A stretch of DNA of 56,640 nucleotides from Phenylobacterium sp. GTDB taxonomy: Bacteria; Pseudomonadota; Alphaproteobacteria; Caulobacterales; Caulobacteraceae. Shown piece after piece: positions 10,425-17,671 of this stretch. Every line of letters begins with the position of its first letter. Within the stretch, counting starts at the first letter, position 1. The stretch spans positions 1 to 56,640 of the forward strand of contig JADBYZ010000029.1 in the NCBI GenBank assembly GCA_020402745.1, read 5' to 3'. The notes below the pieces were generated by a model that was not told where the DNA came from, did no database searches, and was given only the letters and a program-made list of their open reading frames with translations. Made by a program: the position numbers and the translations under genes.

Positions 10425-12188
10425 ATGAGAACGCTTTGGGGAATGACCTGCGCCTGGCTGGTCCTGCTGGCCGCCATTGCGGGCCCGGCCAGGGCGGCCT
10501 CGCCCGGCCTGGACGCCCTGATCGCCGACTACGAGTCGTGGTCCCTGGGCGATGATCCCTTCGAGGCCGGCCGCCGGGGCGATCGGGAAGCCCTGGCCCG
10601 CCTGCCCGACCCCAGCCCTGCGGCCGACGCCCGCCGCAAGGCCGCCCTCTCGGCCTTCCAGGACCGGCTGGCGCGCCTTCCCGCAGCGACCCTGACGGCC
10701 GAGGATGCCCTGAACCGCGACGTCCTCGACTGGACACTGTCGCGGCGCTTGGCCAGTCTGGGGTTCGACGAAGCGCGCATGCCCTTCAGCTCGGACGGGG
10801 GTTTCGACCAGACCCTCGGCTATATCGCCGGCGGACTGCCCATGCGGTCGGAGGCCGACGCCCGGTCCTGGATCGCCCGACTGAAGGCCGCCCCCGCCTG
10901 GTACGACGCCCACATCACCAATGCGCGGCGGGGGGCGAAGGCAGGATTCACCCAGCCCCGGTCCACCGCCCTCCAGGTCCTGGAGCGGGCGCGCCGGATG
11001 GCGGCCCTGCCGCTGGAAGGCGACCCCCTGCTCGCGCCCCTGTCCCGGCTTCCGGCGACGATTCCGGATCCGATGCGCTCGGCCCTCCTGGAGGAGGCGC
11101 GGACCGCGGTGCGCGAGGGCGTCCAGCCCGCCCGCCGCCGGTATGCCGACTTCCTGGAGGCCGAGTACCTGCCCGCCGCCCGCAAGCGCCTGGCCGCCCG
11201 CAGCCTTCCGGGGGGCGAGGCCTATTATCGCTGGCTGGTCGCCGACCACACCACCACGAGCCTGACCCCGGACCAGATCCACCAGATCGGCCTCGACGAG
11301 GTGGCCCGTATCCGCCGCGAGATGGAAGGGGTGATGGCCGAGACCGGCTTCCAGGGCGACTTCGCCGCCTTCCTCGCCATGCTGCGCACCGACCCGCGCT
11401 TCTATGCGAAGAGCCGGGAGGAGCTGCTGGAGAAGGCCTCGCGGATCGCCAAGCGGATCGACGACGAGCTGCCCGCCTGGTTCGCCACCCTGCCGAGGCT
11501 GACCTATGGAGTCAGGCCGGTGCCCACCGACATCGAGGAGACCTACACCACGGGGCGTTACTTCGGCGGATCGGCCGCCCGGGGCGTGTCCGGCGGCTAC
11601 ATGGTCAACACCTCACGTCTGGACCAGAGGCCGCTCTATGAGCTGCCCGCCCTGACCCTGCATGAGGCGGTCCCGGGCCATCATCTGCAGATCGCCCTGG
11701 CCGAGGAGGCGCCCGGCGTCCCGGACTTCAGACGCAACGCCGACATCACCGCCTTCACCGAAGGCTGGGGCCTCTATGCCGAGAAGCTGGGCGGGGAGAT
11801 GGGGATCTACCGCGACCCCTGGGAACGGTTCGGCCGCCTGTCCTACGAGATGTGGCGCGCCTGTCGGCTGGTGGCCGACACCGGCCTCCACTGGAAGGGC
11901 TGGAGCCTGGACGAGGCCCGGACCTGCTTCACCCAGAACAGCGCGCTCTCGCCCCTCAACATCGAGGTGGAGCTGGCGCGGTACGTGTCCTGGCCCGGCC
12001 AGGCCCTGGCCTACAAGATCGGGGAGATGCGCATCGTCGCCCTGCGCGAGGGCGCCCGGCGCGAACTTGGCGATCGCTTCGACATCCGCCGGTTCCATGA
12101 CGCGGTCCTGCTGGCCGGCCCCTTGCCGCTCGACCGGCTGGAGGCCCGCATTCGCGACTGGACCGCGGCTGAGCGCCAGCGGAACTAG
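10425..12188 (+). CDS. Exported DUF885 metallopeptidase-like protein
   Basis: A 587-residue protein with a cleavable signal peptide (hydrophobic core about residues 8-20, AxA site near 25) and the DUF885 fold. It carries HEAVPGHH at residues 413-420 and a downstream glutamate in TEGWGLYAEKLG, which together look like a zinc site (HExxxGHH plus Glu). It is probably a periplasmic carboxypeptidase-like enzyme, but substrates for this family are mostly untested. GGAGG precedes the ATG at good spacing. Its stop overlaps the tail of the convergent tetR gene by four bases. Confidence 0.85.
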   Translation: MRTLWGMTCAWLVLLAAIAGPARAASPGLDALIADYESWSLGDDPFEAGRRGDREALARLPDPSPAADARRKAALSAFQDRLARLPAATLTAEDALNRDVLDWTLSRRLASLGFDEARMPFSSDGGFDQTLGYIAGGLPMRSEADARSWIARLKAAPAWYDAHITNARRGAKAGFTQPRSTALQVLERARRMAALPLEGDPLLAPLSRLPATIPDPMRSALLEEARTAVREGVQPARRRYADFLEAEYLPAARKRLAARSLPGGEAYYRWLVADHTTTSLTPDQIHQIGLDEVARIRREMEGVMAETGFQGDFAAFLAMLRTDPRFYAKSREELLEKASRIAKRIDDELPAWFATLPRLTYGVRPVPTDIEETYTTGRYFGGSAARGVSGGYMVNTSRLDQRPLYELPALTLHEAVPGHHLQIALAEEAPGVPDFRRNADITAFTEGWGLYAEKLGGEMGIYRDPWERFGRLSYEMWRACRLVADTGLHWKGWSLDEARTCFTQNSALSPLNIEVELARYVSWPGQALAYKIGEMRIVALREGARRELGDRFDIRRFHDAVLLAGPLPLDRLEARIRDWTAAERQRN

Positions 12189-12811
12189 CCCGGCCAGAGG
12201 TCCTGGGCCGCGCCCTTGCGGTTCAGGCCATGGACCGCGCGCTTGACCACGGCGATGAGGCGCCTGCGGCGATCATCGGCGTCGTAGGAAAGCCCGCCCC
12301 GGGCCAGGCCTTCCAGGAGGAAGCGGCCCAGGTCGCGGCTGGTCTGGAAGCGAGGATCCTCCCCCGCCTGGGCGACCGCGCCGAACCGCCCCCCCAGTCG
12401 TCCGGAATCGAAGTCCGCCAGCAGGTCCTCGATCGCGCCGGCCACCTCCGGGTCCGCGCGGGCCGCCGAGCGGAGTTCAGCGAAGGCGAGGAAGGGCGGC
12501 TCGAACAGAAGGGCCCAATAGGTGTCTATGGCGTGGTCCGAGGCGTCGATCCCGGGCGGCGGGCGGCCGGCGGCGTCGAAGAGGCGGGCCATGCCCTCGC
12601 GCAGGTGCGGTGCAAGAGCGGCCAGCAGGGCCGGGCGATCCGGGAAGTGATAGAGGTAGGCTGTCCTGGCCAGTCCCGCACGGGCGGCGATGGCGGCGGG
12701 CGTGACCGAGGCCAAACCTGACTCCGACAGCAGGTCCACGACGGAGTCCAGAAGCCGCAGGCGGGTGCGCTCGGCGCGCCTGGAAGGAGCAGGAGAGGCG
12801 GAGTTGGCCAT
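12185..12811 (-). CDS. TetR-family transcriptional regulator
   Basis: A 208-residue TetR-family protein with its HTH at about residues 10-58 (recognition segment AARAGLARTAYLYHF) and a variable C-terminal domain. A TTG 36 bases upstream is in frame, but the ATG at 12811 is the more usual start. It is divergent from the PlcP-type gene across a 117-base gap that also contains a Pho-box-like site. Targets cannot be inferred. Confidence 0.82.
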   Translation of the reverse strand: MANSASPAPSRRAERTRLRLLDSVVDLLSESGLASVTPAAIAARAGLARTAYLYHFPDRPALLAALAPHLREGMARLFDAAGRPPPGIDASDHAIDTYWALLFEPPFLAFAELRSAARADPEVAGAIEDLLADFDSGRLGGRFGAVAQAGEDPRFQTSRDLGRFLLEGLARGGLSYDADDRRRRLIAVVKRAVHGLNRKGAAQDLWPG

Positions 12812-12859
12812 GACCGGGCTTCTGTCCCCCGGAAGCGGTCTTGGCAATCCCCGGCGCCG

Positions 12860-12877
12860 GCGTCATCCGACTGACAC
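12860..12877 (+). promoter_or_regulatory. Pho-box-like site upstream of the phospholipase C gene
   Basis: The 18 bases GCGTCAT-CCGA-CTGACAC are two 7-mers 11 bases apart, as in the PhoB consensus CTGTCAT-N4-CTGTCAC (5/7 and 6/7 matches). The site is 52 bases ahead of the start at 12929 and has the right orientation. Better matches lie ahead of the porin and pstS genes in the same block, which raises confidence here. Confidence 0.55.
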
Positions 12878-12928
12878 GCAAGCAGCCTAGTGCGCAATCC
12901 ACGTTGGCATCCTGGGGGGCGATTGGCG

Positions 12929-13738
12929 ATGTCGCAGGGCGAGCACAAGTATCGGACCGTCTTCATTTCCGACATACACCTCGGCACAAAGGGGTGTCAG
13001 GCTGATCTGCTGCTGGATTTCATCCGGACGGCGGAGTTCGACACCCTCTATCTGGTCGGCGACATCATCGACGGCTGGAAGCTGCGCAACGGCTGGTACT
13101 GGCCGCAGGCCCACAACGACGTCGTCCAGAAGATTCTGCGCCTGGCCCGTAAGGGGGTGAAGGTCATCTATGTCCCTGGCAACCATGACGAGGCGGCGCG
13201 GGACTTCATCGGTCATCGGTTCGGCGACGTGTTGGTCATGCGGGACGCCATCCATGAGACGGCGGATGGGCGACGCTTTCTGGTCACCCACGGCGACGAG
13301 TTCGACGGCGTTCTGCGCCACGCCCGCTGGTTGGCCTTCGTCGGCGACTGGTCCTACCGATCGCTCCTGACCCTGAACACTGTGTTCAACCGCTGGCGGC
13401 GGCGGTTCGGCTTCGGCTACTGGTCCCTTTCGGCCTACCTGAAGCTGAAGGTCAAGAACGCGGTCCAGTTCATCGAGAACTACGAAGAGGCGGTCGCCGA
13501 GGAGGCTCGTCGCCGCGGTGTGGATGGCGTAATCTGCGGCCACATCCATAAAGCCGAGATCCGTCGTTTCGACGATATTCTCTACATCAACGATGGCGAC
13601 TGGGTGGAAAGCTGCACCGCTGTCGCCGAACGCGACGACGGCGAGTTAATCCTCCTGGACTGGAGCCAGGTGCGGCTTCAGCCTCGCCGCCTTTCGGAGC
13701 TCCGCGCAACGCGGCCGGCCACGCAACTTGCAGCTTGA
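12929..13738 (+). CDS. plcP: Metallophosphoesterase, probable PlcP-type phospholipase C
   Basis: A 269-residue calcineurin-like phosphoesterase with the full metal-ligand set: SDIHLG (14-19), GDIID (44-48), GNHDE (84-88), a THGDEFD segment, and GHIHKAE near residue 207. It belongs to COG2908, often annotated UDP-2,3-diacylglucosamine diphosphatase. In alphaproteobacteria, members next to a GT4 glycosyltransferase are PlcP, which hydrolyses phospholipids to diacylglycerol under phosphate limitation. A glycosyltransferase gene follows 47 bases later, and a Pho-box-like site lies upstream, so PlcP is the better call. The start at 12929 has GGGG upstream; an in-frame GTG at 12890 lacks a site. 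Confidence 0.75.
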   Translation: MSQGEHKYRTVFISDIHLGTKGCQADLLLDFIRTAEFDTLYLVGDIIDGWKLRNGWYWPQAHNDVVQKILRLARKGVKVIYVPGNHDEAARDFIGHRFGDVLVMRDAIHETADGRRFLVTHGDEFDGVLRHARWLAFVGDWSYRSLLTLNTVFNRWRRRFGFGYWSLSAYLKLKVKNAVQFIENYEEAVAEEARRRGVDGVICGHIHKAEIRRFDDILYINDGDWVESCTAVAERDDGELILLDWSQVRLQPRRLSELRATRPATQLAA

Positions 13739-13748
13739 GCCCAAGCCG

Positions 13749-13785
13749 TTGACCTTTCGTCAGATTTACTGGCAATATGTCTGAC
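13749..13785 (+). promoter_or_regulatory. Leaderless promoter with inverted-repeat operator
   Basis: TTGACC (13749-13754) and CAATAT (13773-13778) are 18 bases apart. The ATG at 13786 begins eight bases after the -10, so the transcript would start on the start codon. The arms GTCAGA (13759-13764) and TCTGAC (13780-13785) form an inverted repeat with a 15-base spacer that straddles the -10. That is the position expected of an autoregulatory TetR operator, and the downstream protein itself carries a TetR HTH. Confidence 0.5.
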
Positions 13786-15186
13786 ATGGCGACACTCAGG
13801 GATTTGCCGGAGAGCCTGTCCCGGGACCGGCGGAAGGCCCAGACGGAAACCCGTATTCTCGACGCCGCCGGCCGCCTGCTGGAGGAAGGGCGGCTGGAGG
13901 AAGCCTCCTTTTCTGAGATCGCCCGTCTGGCCGGGGTGGGCGACCGGACTGTTTATCGCTACTACCCCACCCGCGACGCCCTCATGGGCGCCTTTTGGGC
14001 GCGTTTGCAGACTGAGGGGCTACCGTCGCGAAAGCCCTCCATGCGCAGAGTGCGTCAGAGTGTTCGGACCGAGTTCGACGGCCGCAAGCCCATGCGGATT
14101 CTCATCGCCACCGACGCCTGGGAACCCCAGGTCAACGGCGTGGTGCGCACCCTGACCCGGGTGATCTCCGAGATGCAGGCGATGGGGCATACGGTGGAGG
14201 TCATCTCGCCGGATCAATTCCGGGGCTTCCCGCTTCCCACCTATCCTGAAATCAAAGTCGCCGTCGGGGCTTACGAATCCGTCCGGGAGCGCTTTAAAGC
14301 CTTCGAGCCGGAAGCCATCCACATCGCCACGGAAGGGCCCATCGGCCTCGCCGCCCGGCGGATTTGCGTGGAGTGGAAGCTGCCGTTCACCACAAGCTAC
14401 CACACGCGCTTTCCCGAGTACGTCTCGGCGCGTTTTCCCGTGCCCGTGTCGGCTGGCTACGCCTACATGCGCTGGTTCCATAAGCCCTCCGGGCGTCTCA
14501 TGGTGGCGACGCCGACCATGCGCGACGAGTTGGAGCAGCACGGGTTCCGGAACATCACAGCCTGGTCCCGGGGGGTCGACACCGAGCAATTCCGACCCCT
14601 GGGGGCTGGAGATCCCGACGTCTACGAAGGCCTGCCCCGACCGATCTTCCTGTCCGTGGGCCGGGTGGCGGTGGAGAAGAACATCGAGGCCTTCCTCGCC
14701 CTCGACCTGCCCGGCTCAAAGGTCGTCGTTGGCGACGGCCCCCAACGGGAGGAGCTGGAGAGCCGGTATCCCGGCGCGGTTTTCCGCGGGGCCCGCCTCG
14801 GGGACGATCTCGCCGCCCATTTCGCCGGCGCCGACGTCTTCGTCTTCCCGTCCCTGACCGACACCTTCGGGCTGGTGATCCTGGAGGCCATGGCGACCGG
14901 GACGCCGGTGGCGGCCTATCCCGCGCCCGGTCCCATCGACATCATTCCGGGGTCTGGCGCCGGGGTCCTGGCCCTGACGGCCACCGAGGGGCTGAAGGAG
15001 GCCTGCCTGGAGGCCCTCAAGCTGGACCGCACCACAGCGCGCCGATTTGCTGAGGGGTTCTCCTGGCGCGCTTGCGCCGAAGACTTCGTGCGCAACCTGC
15101 AACCCTGGCCGGAGCCGGAGAAGACCCGGTTTTGGCGGCGCCTGCGCCGGCTGGCCCGGCTCCGTCAGCGTCGCGACGACGTCTGA
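13786..15186 (+). CDS. TetR DNA-binding domain fused to a GT4 glycosyltransferase
   Basis: One uninterrupted 466-residue frame joins two unrelated modules. Residues about 15-75 are a complete TetR N-terminal HTH, with the recognition segment LAGVGDRTVYRYYPTRDAL. The TetR ligand-binding domain is missing. After a basic linker, a full GT4 glycosyltransferase begins at residue 103 (MRILIATDAWEPQVNG). It continues through the donor-site region VGRVAVEKNIEAF and a C-terminal ExxxxG(x)P-type stretch, LVILEAMATGTPVAAYP. The glycosyltransferase half resembles Agt, which adds sugar to diacylglycerol made by PlcP when phosphate is scarce. No convincing ribosome-binding site precedes the internal ATG at 14092. 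An ATG at 13777 is also in frame. Whether the HTH still binds DNA is unknown. Confidence 0.8.
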   Translation: MATLRDLPESLSRDRRKAQTETRILDAAGRLLEEGRLEEASFSEIARLAGVGDRTVYRYYPTRDALMGAFWARLQTEGLPSRKPSMRRVRQSVRTEFDGRKPMRILIATDAWEPQVNGVVRTLTRVISEMQAMGHTVEVISPDQFRGFPLPTYPEIKVAVGAYESVRERFKAFEPEAIHIATEGPIGLAARRICVEWKLPFTTSYHTRFPEYVSARFPVPVSAGYAYMRWFHKPSGRLMVATPTMRDELEQHGFRNITAWSRGVDTEQFRPLGAGDPDVYEGLPRPIFLSVGRVAVEKNIEAFLALDLPGSKVVVGDGPQREELESRYPGAVFRGARLGDDLAAHFAGADVFVFPSLTDTFGLVILEAMATGTPVAAYPAPGPIDIIPGSGAGVLALTATEGLKEACLEALKLDRTTARRFAEGFSWRACAEDFVRNLQPWPEPEKTRFWRRLRRLARLRQRRDDV

Positions 15187-15206
15187 GCCTCCCATCCACC
15201 AGACAG

Positions 15207-15239
15207 AAAAGCGCCGCAGACCGGAGAGGTCTGCGGCGC
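15207..15239 (-). terminator. Intrinsic terminator of the pstS transcript
   Basis: A perfect 12-bp stem (GCGCCGCAGACC and its complement, 15211-15239) with a five-base loop is followed on the minus strand by TTTT (15207-15210). It lies between the convergent glycosyltransferase and pstS genes. The T run favours termination of the pstS transcript, though the stem could act on both strands. Confidence 0.75.
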
Positions 15240-15265
15240 AGGCGCCGATGGCGGACGGCGGCGGG

Positions 15266-16315
15266 TCAGGCTGCGGGTCGGGCCATGGGGGTCAGGGTGC
15301 GCACAGCGGCCTTGTTAGCCTCGTGCTGGGAGGCGGGCAGGGGGATCAGACCGCGATCCTTGAGATAGCCCCCGCGCCCGGTGGCGGCGTCGGAAACAAA
15401 CTCGGTCACGTACTCCCGAAGTCCCTTTGTCACGCCGACGTTCGACTTCTTCACATAGATGAAGAGTGAGCGGGCCAGGGGGTAGGAGCCATCAGAGATG
15501 GACGCCAGCGAAGGCTTCACGCCGTTTACCGAGGCGCCTTTCACCTTGTCCATATTCTCTTCAAGGAAGGACCACCCGAAGACGCCCAGGGCCCCGGGGG
15601 TCTTGGTGAGGGTCTGGACGATGGCGTTATCGTTCTCGCCGGAGTCGATCCAGCCGTCCTTGCGGAGGGGATTGACCATTTCCTTGAACCGCTTTTCGTC
15701 CTTATCCTTCAGGGCTTTGTTCGCCGGATACCTGAGGGCGCCGGCCTCGATGGCCAGTTCGACAAAGGCGTCGCGGGTGCCCGAGGAGGGTGGCGGACCA
15801 TAGACCTGGATCCGACCTTTCGGCAGGCCGGCCCCAACCTCCGGCCAGGCCTTGTAGGGATTGGCCTGGTACTGGCCGTAGCGGAGCACCCTGGCCGCAA
15901 GGCCAAGGTAGAGGGCAGAAGTGCTGAAGGCGTAGTCTGGCGCGCGCTTGTCCACCGCGATGACGATGCCGTCGAAGCCGATCTTCAGCTCGATGATGTC
16001 CTTCACCCCCTTGGAGGCGCAGGCATCAAACTCGGAACGCTTCATCTGGCGAGAGGCGATGGCGATATCGGGATAGCTGTCGCCAACACCAGAACAGAAG
16101 AGCTTGATACCGCCCCCGGTTCCGAGGCTCTCGACCTTGGGCGCGCGATTGCCCGTCTTTCGGGCAAACTGTTCGGAAACCCGGGTCGCAAACGGAAAGA
16201 CCGTGGAGGAGCCGGCGGCCCAGACAAAATCTCGGGCGGCGTAAGCCGGAGCGGCGCCCAGACCTGCGGTGAGGAGGAGGCCCGCAGAGACGGCGGATAG
16301 GAAGCGCTTGATCAT
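15266..16315 (-). CDS. pstS: Phosphate-binding periplasmic protein PstS
   Basis: A 349-residue periplasmic binding protein with a signal peptide (cleaved near AYA at residues 24-26). It has the phosphate-site motifs GSSTVFPF and ASRQMKRSE, and an SGTRDAF loop near residue 180. It captures orthophosphate for a PstCAB importer, but no pstC, pstA or pstB lies in the window. AGGAG eight bases before the ATG at 16315 defines the start. A Pho-box-like site (16408-16425) lies about 92 bases upstream. It is the last gene of a minus-strand series that begins with phnC and ends at a strong terminator. Confidence 0.93.
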   Translation of the reverse strand: MIKRFLSAVSAGLLLTAGLGAAPAYAARDFVWAAGSSTVFPFATRVSEQFARKTGNRAPKVESLGTGGGIKLFCSGVGDSYPDIAIASRQMKRSEFDACASKGVKDIIELKIGFDGIVIAVDKRAPDYAFSTSALYLGLAARVLRYGQYQANPYKAWPEVGAGLPKGRIQVYGPPPSSGTRDAFVELAIEAGALRYPANKALKDKDEKRFKEMVNPLRKDGWIDSGENDNAIVQTLTKTPGALGVFGWSFLEENMDKVKGASVNGVKPSLASISDGSYPLARSLFIYVKKSNVGVTKGLREYVTEFVSDAATGRGGYLKDRGLIPLPASQHEANKAAVRTLTPMARPAA

Positions 16316-16407
16316 CGAAAAGGACTCCTGGATCGAAAGGTCCCGGATAGCGGACCAGACGGATCCGTTGCAACACGGCTCCCTTTCTGGACCTCTAACC
16401 GGATCAT

Positions 16408-16425
16408 GTGACACTTAGGCGACGC
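16408..16425 (-). promoter_or_regulatory. Pho-box-like site upstream of pstS
   Basis: Reading the minus strand: GCGTCGC-CTAA-GTGTCAC, two 7-mers 11 bases apart with a perfect TGTCAC in the second. It sits in the 111-base gap between the porin stop and the pstS start and points toward pstS. pstS can therefore be transcribed on its own under phosphate limitation. Confidence 0.6.
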
Positions 16426-16426
16426 A

Positions 16427-17671
16427 TCAGAACTCATACTGAGCGCGAAGCTGGAGAAGGCGAATCCGGACATCCGGCTGAGGTGTCGCAGGCTCGACTC
16501 GCGCCTCAGAGAGGTTGAGGACGAAGCGGAACCCAGGCTCCGGCCGCCAGACAGCCCCAAGCGTCATGCCGCGATAGTCTCCAGCCCGTCGGGCAGAGAG
16601 CCGTCCCGCATCCGTCGAAGCAGAGGCCCGGACATCTGTCAGGTCAGCGAAGTCGTAGCGCGCGAGGAGGTCCAGCGAGCCGAGCCCGCCCTTTGAGAGC
16701 GGAGAGCGCACTCTGGGGACGGCGACGAGGCCCCTCTGAGCATCGTATCCCCGGCCCTCCCCCATGAGGTTCCAGCCCGCGAAGACGTAACCGGCGACCA
16801 GAACAGGATCGCCACCCGCTGCGGCCCGGGGGCTGCGTTCCGCACGCAGACGGGCCGCTTCGGCCTGTAGCCAGAAAGGCCCGCTCATCCAGGCGAACTC
16901 CAGGGCGGCGGAGGAGTCCCCGCGCGAGAAGGACCCGGAACCCAGCCACTCGCCGGACCGCCCTGCGGACGTACCCGGGCGGGCGGCGTAACCGCGCAGA
17001 GCCTGATCGCCGAAATCGCGGCTTCGGACCCAGCCGCCCAGGTGAAGCCGACTGGTGTCCCCCATCTGCAAAGAGCCCGCCAGCCGCGCCGTCACCGCTC
17101 GACGGTCGCGCGCGCCTGCAGTGGCGGCGCCGTCGAAGTCCAGACCGAGGTTGTTGAAGGTATCCCCCTGCGCTGCGAGCGTCGCCACAACAGCGCCGGT
17201 GTTCACCCGGACCTGTATCGAGCTTGTGAAGGGATCTGTCACAAAGTCACCGTAGGGACCCCGTTCGAGAAAGGAGAGGGTTCGGGTCGAGGTCAGGTTT
17301 TCAAGTCCCGCCGCCTTCAGGTTTCCCGCCGCGAACAGGACATTGGGGCTGACCCGGTACTCCACCGCCACCTCGTCCCAGACAAAGGCGTCATTGTTCG
17401 ACGCCCCGCCCTCAAGCTTGATCAGAAGTCGATCCGAAATCCTTGCATCCAGGCCGAGGAAGGCCTGACGGACCCGCACAAGATCAATCCGCACCTCCCC
17501 GGCGCCTGCGGGCGAGGCGACCTGACTCACCGAGTCAACCAAGAGCCGTCCCTTGGGCCGGAGCTGGATGCTGCTCGACTCTGCGGCGCGGGCGTCCGGG
17601 ACGAGAAGAACAACCCCCGTCAGGGCGGCGAGCACCGCGAAGGCCTGGCGAGAAGTCAAGCGGATCGCCAA
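16427..17671 (-). CDS. Phosphate-selective OprO/OprP-type porin
   Basis: A 414-residue outer membrane beta-barrel ending in the C-terminal phenylalanine signature QYEF. The family is recognised from the N-terminal region (VRQAFLGLDARI, KLEGGASNNDAFVWDEV) and barrel pattern, and it fits the phosphate-selective porins O and P (PF07396). The frame is open to a GTG at 17749, but tandem Pho boxes fall inside that stretch. The TTG at 17671 has GGAG eight bases upstream and opens exactly on a signal peptide (MAIRLTSRQAF, AxA cleavage at DARA). I therefore choose TTG 17671. It should let phosphate cross the outer membrane to PstS, whose gene follows. Confidence 0.85.
   Translation of the reverse strand: MAIRLTSRQAFAVLAALTGVVLLVPDARAAESSSIQLRPKGRLLVDSVSQVASPAGAGEVRIDLVRVRQAFLGLDARISDRLLIKLEGGASNNDAFVWDEVAVEYRVSPNVLFAAGNLKAAGLENLTSTRTLSFLERGPYGDFVTDPFTSSIQVRVNTGAVVATLAAQGDTFNNLGLDFDGAATAGARDRRAVTARLAGSLQMGDTSRLHLGGWVRSRDFGDQALRGYAARPGTSAGRSGEWLGSGSFSRGDSSAALEFAWMSGPFWLQAEAARLRAERSPRAAAGGDPVLVAGYVFAGWNLMGEGRGYDAQRGLVAVPRVRSPLSKGGLGSLDLLARYDFADLTDVRASASTDAGRLSARRAGDYRGMTLGAVWRPEPGFRFVLNLSEARVEPATPQPDVRIRLLQLRAQYEF

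Follow-up and report, generated by a model that had tools for sequence, protein, structure and literature searches.

Within a 56,640-nucleotide stretch of DNA from Phenylobacterium sp. (the window, meaning the whole stretch that was analysed), a single open reading frame joins the HTH of a TetR regulator to a GT4-type glycosyltransferase. This TetR–GT4 fusion is real and bears no sign of decay, and we consider it likely that its product is bifunctional, an enzyme that is also its own repressor and in which the glycosyltransferase has replaced the ligand-binding and dimerization domain of TetR.

The fused protein and its distribution

The frame is open from 13777 to 15186 on the forward strand (469 amino acids). 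The in-frame ATG at 13777 lies at a place that is not conserved among the aligned relatives; the start they share in the upstream alignment is the ATG at 13786, counted from which the coding sequence (13786–15186, forward strand) specifies 466 amino acids. The initial annotation had read the frame as a TetR HTH at about residues 15–75 and a GT4 enzyme from residue 103, with no TetR ligand domain: its numbering fits a start at 13786, and Pfam together with structural modeling confirmed the composition. The HTH (residues 9–77; 13810–14016, this and the following segments on the forward strand) matches positions 1–46 of the 47 in PF00440 (TetR_N) with 36.6 bits against a cut-off of 24, and its helices are modeled with block means of pLDDT of about 80–95 from residue 11 onward. 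It is followed by a linker (residues 80–98; 14023–14079) that is predicted to be disordered, with a pLDDT below 50, and that varies in length and sequence between species, then by the Agt-type GT4 domain (residues 103–444; 14092–15117), which matches Glyco_transf_4 in full (1–170 of 170) as well as Glyco_trans_1_4, and finally by a predicted cationic amphipathic helix (residues 445–465; 15118–15180), whose residues 445–462 have a hydrophobic moment of 0.61 and a net charge of +8. Since matches to unfused relatives extend through residue 465, these proteins seem to have the helix too. Neither Pfam nor the structure model yields a TetR ligand-binding or dimerization domain in the fused protein: the linker leads into the glycosyltransferase fold. 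The model, computed from a 69-sequence alignment of fused, unfused and TetR proteins, has a mean pLDDT of 88 and comprises the HTH, the low-scoring linker, the glycosyltransferase and the last helix; it superseded a poor first model with a pLDDT of 59.7. The best Foldseek matches in the PDB include MshA, BshA, PimA and glycogen synthases, with TM-scores by query length of 0.3–0.6 in the best 50, and a profile of 54 fused proteins finds solved TetR and solved GT4 chains, each of them, among the matches listed, by one part of the profile.

For the enzyme half, GTcp of Pelagibacter offers a functional reference, as the excerpted report describes 13 residues at which mutations left no or almost no activity (PMC8231724). 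Their equivalents, assigned from motifs and spacing rather than from the GTcp sequence itself (six spacings are equal or off by one, and Arg163 and Trp320 are placed by motif only, with spacings that differ by 3 and 4), are invariant for 12 of the 13 in 67 fused sequences, and that of Asp256 is D in 65 and E in two. The equivalent of Thr162 is Ser in 64 sequences and Ala in three, and the dimer residue Leu56 corresponds to Val158, which is V in 65 and L in two. The two sequences with Glu at the catalytic Asp256 position (L047 and L048, both of the genus g15) also differ in their recognition helix; in GTcp, the exchange of Asp256 for Glu lowered activity by more than 90% according to the same excerpts (PMC8231724). 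The sequence data support an intact Agt-like GT4 lipid glycosyltransferase with diacylglycerol as the predicted acceptor and membrane lipids free of phosphorus as its probable products. All NCBIfam models stay below their cut-offs (the best at 70.9 bits against 480), and we know of no Agt model in that collection.

Among other Caulobacteraceae, the search for the same domain pair proposed in the initial annotation revealed a fusion that is genus-wide in Phenylobacterium and present in g15. The family search covered 249 genomes, 240 of which matched (absence was judged from a separate Caulobacterales search), and included 55 other genomes of the window's genus. All 54 of these with an enzyme match carry the fusion, with the HTH in frame in the locus DNA; in G220 and G238, contig ends split the fused gene and leave the HTH and part of the enzyme visible. 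The sole same-genus genome without a match, G235 (440 contigs), has a distant glycosyltransferase only. All three g15 genomes are fused. In the Caulobacterales search, whose full listing contains the enzyme in 149 of 150 genomes, the six Phenylobacterium genomes are fused (five by the match itself, G059 from its locus DNA) and none of the 143 genomes of other genera is, their matches beginning no earlier than query residue 62 (g15 lies outside this sample). The class search matched 156 of 385 genomes, and among the matches listed none from outside the genus begins before residue 50. Because the frame is likewise open in relatives of two collections, a sequencing error can for practical purposes be excluded. 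A tree built from 33 selected fused enzymes and 47 unfused ones unites the fused Phenylobacterium enzymes in one clade (support 99/97) and does not place the g15 enzymes beside them; one origin for both fusions is neither rejected nor shown by this comparison (p-AU 0.40). One genome, G277, has two distinct fused genes (L147, C23; L148, C131), each with an operator, which points to a duplication or a mixed assembly.

Locus, operator and related TetR proteins

In the window, a plcP-like metallophosphoesterase gene (12932–13738, forward strand; Pfam Metallophos, synteny) lies directly upstream of the fused gene, and a terminator-like hairpin of 12 pairs (15211–15239, reverse strand) separates the latter from a convergent gene for a PstS-like phosphate-binding protein (15266–16414, reverse strand; Pfam, context). 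PstS- or Phn-type genes also occur in the locus DNA of many fused and unfused relatives. A Pho-box-like repeat 72 nucleotides before plcP (12860–12877, forward strand) is a weak candidate; such a repeat recurs at a similar place in many relatives, with a mean best score of 9.2 of 14 against 8.3 for shuffled sequence (82 regions). Divergent from plcP is a separate gene for a full-length TetR (12185–12847, reverse strand; Pfam, synteny), which is kept in fused and in many unfused relatives. An Rfam scan of 12000–16500 gave no match. Excerpts of a study on Methylosinus report that a plcP-agt mutant lost the glycolipid of phosphate limitation (PMC9239053). Among 58 distinct unfused loci, plcP is present in 38: The two genes overlap by a single base (TGATG or TAATG), plcP stop on agt start, in 30 and by four bases in three, and are otherwise spaced in four. 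At one further locus (L125, from G176 of the genus g22), the plcP frame continues into agt over 656 amino acids, either as a plcP–agt fusion or through a one-base error; the closely related L060 shows the common TGATG overlap. In Phenylobacterium, the HTH lies downstream of plcP and ahead of the enzyme. The 78 fused loci, a count that includes g15 and duplicates shared by the collections, have plcP in 53 cases, and in 25 it was not found in the 1.5–4.0 kb of upstream DNA; these 25 (e.g., L014, L017, L019, L046 and L101) belong to more than one lineage and retain HTH, enzyme and operator.

The DNA preceding the fused gene contains a −35-like hexamer, TTGACC (13749–13754, forward strand), and a palindrome, TGGCA-N7-TGACA (13770–13786, forward strand; TGGCAATATGTCTGACA), which overlaps the −10 region, the presumed +1 and the first base of the start codon. 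The expectation in the initial annotation of a TetR-type operator over the gene's own promoter and start codon was thus borne out, with TGRCAG-N5-CTGYCA as the genus consensus, whose final A opens the start codon. The repeat named there, GTCAGA-N15-TCTGAC, does exist in the window but was rejected as a conserved operator, as both of its arms occur in only one of 69 distinct upstream sequences, that of the window itself. In the underlying alignment of 78 upstream sequences of fused genes (69 distinct), the TTGAC columns near −35 have the majority base in 57–64 of the 69, and the operator columns −15, −13, −12, −4, −3 and −1 are invariant; column 0 is always A because the rows were aligned on the ATG. 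Each palindrome arm agrees with the reverse complement of the other at a mean of 5.23 of 6 bases, compared with 0.30–2.07 when slid. The site in the window is degenerate, its left arm reading TGGCAA, and fails the strict pattern. A strict sigma-70 scan of the window called no promoter, and the −10 hexamer is poor. At L101, L103, L106 and L109 (from G074, G232, G205 and G202), a second palindrome or near copy lies upstream of the first.

Among 60 genomes of the genus, 39 contain TGRCAGTNNNNCTGYCATG at one site each, against 0 for the reversed control, and all 29 of the 39 sites that were located lie at the fused gene. Class-wide, operator sites were found in 12 of 385 genomes versus 4 for the reversed control, none of the former at a tetR as judged by eye. 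The operator combined with the −35 box occurs in 52 of 298 genomes family-wide: Matches comprise the fused genes and the TetRs of G009 and G098, and also sites in G034, G105, G145 and G043 and an extra site in G264, of which those in G034, G105 and G145 are not at tetR genes and that in G105 precedes a gene for an XRE-type regulator. The bare palindrome without the ATG is not enriched (in 45 genomes, a count by eye gave 63 sites versus 80 for the reversed control), so that a large regulon is not seen. Among the fused genes, there is no clear case of co-variation between recognition helix and operator: Two g15 genomes have IAERT for VGERT in the helix and the right arm CTGACA, which also accompanies the normal helix in the window and in L095.

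A search of 118 Caulobacteraceae genomes with the HTH only gave its best non-fused matches in G009 (62 bits), G093 (55) and G098 (54). The matches in G009 and G098 are TetRs of full length, and TTGAC and the palindrome have the same layout at the starts of their genes, with two copies at the G009 gene (L219); the TetR of G098 belongs to the window's genus. G093 has a variant site, TGTCA-N6-TGACA, outside the pattern. TTGAC plus a palindrome ending in the start codon is the layout of leaderless, self-repressed tetR genes. In an HTH tree that is weak with its 70 columns, the fused HTHs grouped with those of G009, G098 and G019, apart from the divergent tetR. This neighbour, on the other branch of the weak tree, was rejected as the source of the HTH, and so was L002, the best other HTH match in the window's own genome, whose locus has no TGNCA-N7-TGNCA site. 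The separate tetR and agt genes that the initial annotation had envisaged in relatives did not appear: in the unfused relatives examined, no gene with a fused-type HTH stands beside agt, and the HTH matches there are to the divergent tetR.

Proposed mechanism and alternative readings

Across 67 complete fused genes, the median pairwise dN/dS, obtained by simple counts over gene pairs that are not independent, is 0.34 for the HTH, 0.65 for the linker and 0.18 for the glycosyltransferase; after the synonymous-distance filter, 1898 of 2211 pairs remained for the HTH and for the glycosyltransferase and 1791 for the linker. Within the recognition helix, R54, Y57, R58, P61 and T62 are invariant, and T55 and V56 are found in 66 of the 67. 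By these sequence measures, the HTH is under purifying selection.

From the architecture and the upstream region we infer that the fused protein would bind its own promoter as a dimer, repress it and be translated from a leaderless start. In the course of events that we propose, a leaderless, self-repressing tetR and its operator would have come to precede agt in a Phenylobacterium ancestor, whereupon the TetR ligand-binding domain would have been lost and the HTH joined to Agt via a flexible linker. The GT4 part would then supply the dimerization formerly given by the lost domain: GTcp elutes as a dimer in the excerpted report (PMC8231724), which removes the main mechanical objection to an HTH without the TetR dimerization domain, and by analogy we infer that the fused protein dimerizes as well. 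Two HTHs could thus occupy the 17-bp palindrome, which lies over the −10 region, +1 and the start codon, and block transcription, by which the fused enzyme would limit its own supply. For the least supported step, the most likely course would be that the enzyme leaves the DNA for a membrane loaded with diacylglycerol and that its gene is thereby derepressed in a PutA-like manner. The acceptor diacylglycerol would be the product of PlcP under phosphate starvation, and contact with the membrane would be made via the cationic C-terminal helix; that membrane or diacylglycerol releases the protein from DNA through this helix is speculative and drawn from analogy.

A plainer reading, which overlaps with the autorepressor just described, holds that the HTH binds and represses purely as a concentration thermostat, with no substrate or membrane signal; we regard it as possible though doubtful. 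The linker, disordered and not conserved, offers no evident allosteric path, and excerpts of a study on Caulobacter report lysis when its two sphingolipid glycosyltransferases are overproduced at high phosphate (PMC6445935), which makes a need for tight control plausible and would be reason enough for plain homeostasis. The cationic amphipathic helix, which unfused relatives seem to have too, could however let the membrane compete with DNA. It is improbable, in our judgment, that the operator is instead bound by another TetR, be it a full-length relative or the divergent neighbour, and that the HTH of the fusion serves as a tag for expression or folding that has kept its fold: The operator is indeed shared by full-length TetRs of this subfamily, one of them within the genus (G098), but the recognition-helix residues beyond the core residues are nearly invariant in the fusion, the divergent tetR belongs to a different branch of the HTH tree, and the palindrome found with the fusion is absent within 400 nucleotides of the unfused agt at all 58 loci (two of them with less upstream DNA).

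The initial annotation had itself offered the alternative that a dying tetR became linked to agt through a deletion and that the HTH provides only a promoter and a start codon. Unfused relatives have mostly a tight plcP–agt pair, so a new promoter was perhaps useful at first, but the dN/dS of the HTH relative to that of the linker and the nearly invariant recognition helix in the 67 genes contradict this account, the frame is open throughout the genus, and the HTH is retained where plcP is not adjacent; we find it hardly credible. Very unlikely, too, is an annotation artefact in which translation would begin only within the gene, for instance at the ATG at 14092. This codon is kept in 64 of the 67 fused genes and is CTC, CTC and CTG in L035, L037 and L097, respectively; its loss in these three makes an internal start less likely, although other in-frame ATGs 17, 35 or 36 codons before the equivalent codon preserve the possibility there. 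Moreover, 61 of the 67 genes have no Shine–Dalgarno-like stretch before the 14092 ATG, and an internal start would leave the selected HTH unexplained. Translation solely from 14092, as considered in the initial annotation, is weakened by these observations.

Known systems and a second candidate target

In BirA, NadR and MocR-type proteins, an enzyme domain is the sensor of a transcription factor, with other HTH classes and other enzymes; to our knowledge, no glycosyltransferase is found among these enzyme–HTH proteins. The fused protein resembles Agt and GTcp in that the essential residues are kept, plcP adjoins it in the window and phosphate-uptake genes lie around it, whereas the Agt enzymes described in the excerpts have no DNA-binding domain and the fused gene has gained a TetR HTH and an operator, with 466 residues compared to 334 in GTcp (PMC8231724, PMC9239053). 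The arrangement of promoter and operator has a counterpart in the TetR-family regulator AcuR of Rhodobacter, which, according to the excerpted paper, represses its own leaderless operon via an inverted repeat over the promoter, with the start codon at +1 and no ribosome-binding site; the TetR of Tn1721 is likewise named leaderless there (PMC3017554). Both of these keep the ligand-binding and dimerization domain, in place of which an enzyme stands here, and the +1 of the fused gene is presumed. With respect to the switch, the closest likeness is to trifunctional PutA, a self-repressor that turns into a membrane enzyme: Excerpts of the literature describe an N-terminal DNA-binding domain with which PutA represses its own regulon, and a graft of this domain onto a bifunctional PutA that conferred DNA binding and proline-induced lipid association (PMC5293562). 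In the fusion, too, a DNA-binding domain is N-terminal on an enzyme that meets the membrane, and an operator-like site lies at its gene. PutA differs in its ribbon-helix-helix domain and its role in proline catabolism, and switching is demonstrated for PutA and presumed for the fusion.

Self-repressing enzymes are hence known, and the combination of a TetR HTH with a lipid glycosyltransferase appears to be new, as judged from open-licence full texts. If our reading is correct, the fused protein would be a natural one-component sensor whose catalyst doubles as receptor, the TetR ligand domain having been replaced by a membrane-lipid enzyme, and an example of a regulator that changes its signal by a swap of sensors with HTH and operator retained. 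It would also offer a handle on how bacteria sense their supply of membrane lipids, with membrane composition read directly by the enzyme that alters the membrane.

In one clade, the gene of an L,D-transpeptidase is a candidate second target of the fused protein. The widest version of our proposal is tentative, and we think it rather unlikely in its entirety: the glycolipid synthase would act as the sensor, bound to its promoter when diacylglycerol is scarce and drawn to the membrane under phosphate starvation, and in this one clade it would control the L,D-transpeptidase gene as well, which would tie membrane remodelling to cell-wall cross-linking. The palindrome lies 129–165 nucleotides before the gene, which Pfam assigns to the YkuD type (for example at 2501–2517 of L142), with sites also in L160–L163, L167–L169, L171 and L172. 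Of 19 orthologues examined, nine have 11 or 12 of the 12 arm bases and the other ten have 7–10; six of the nine sites were found via the site itself and three (G156, G244 and G132) via the orthologue. All nine site-bearing genomes belong to a single clade in which the fused gene has no plcP beside it, and the site may therefore represent a single event.
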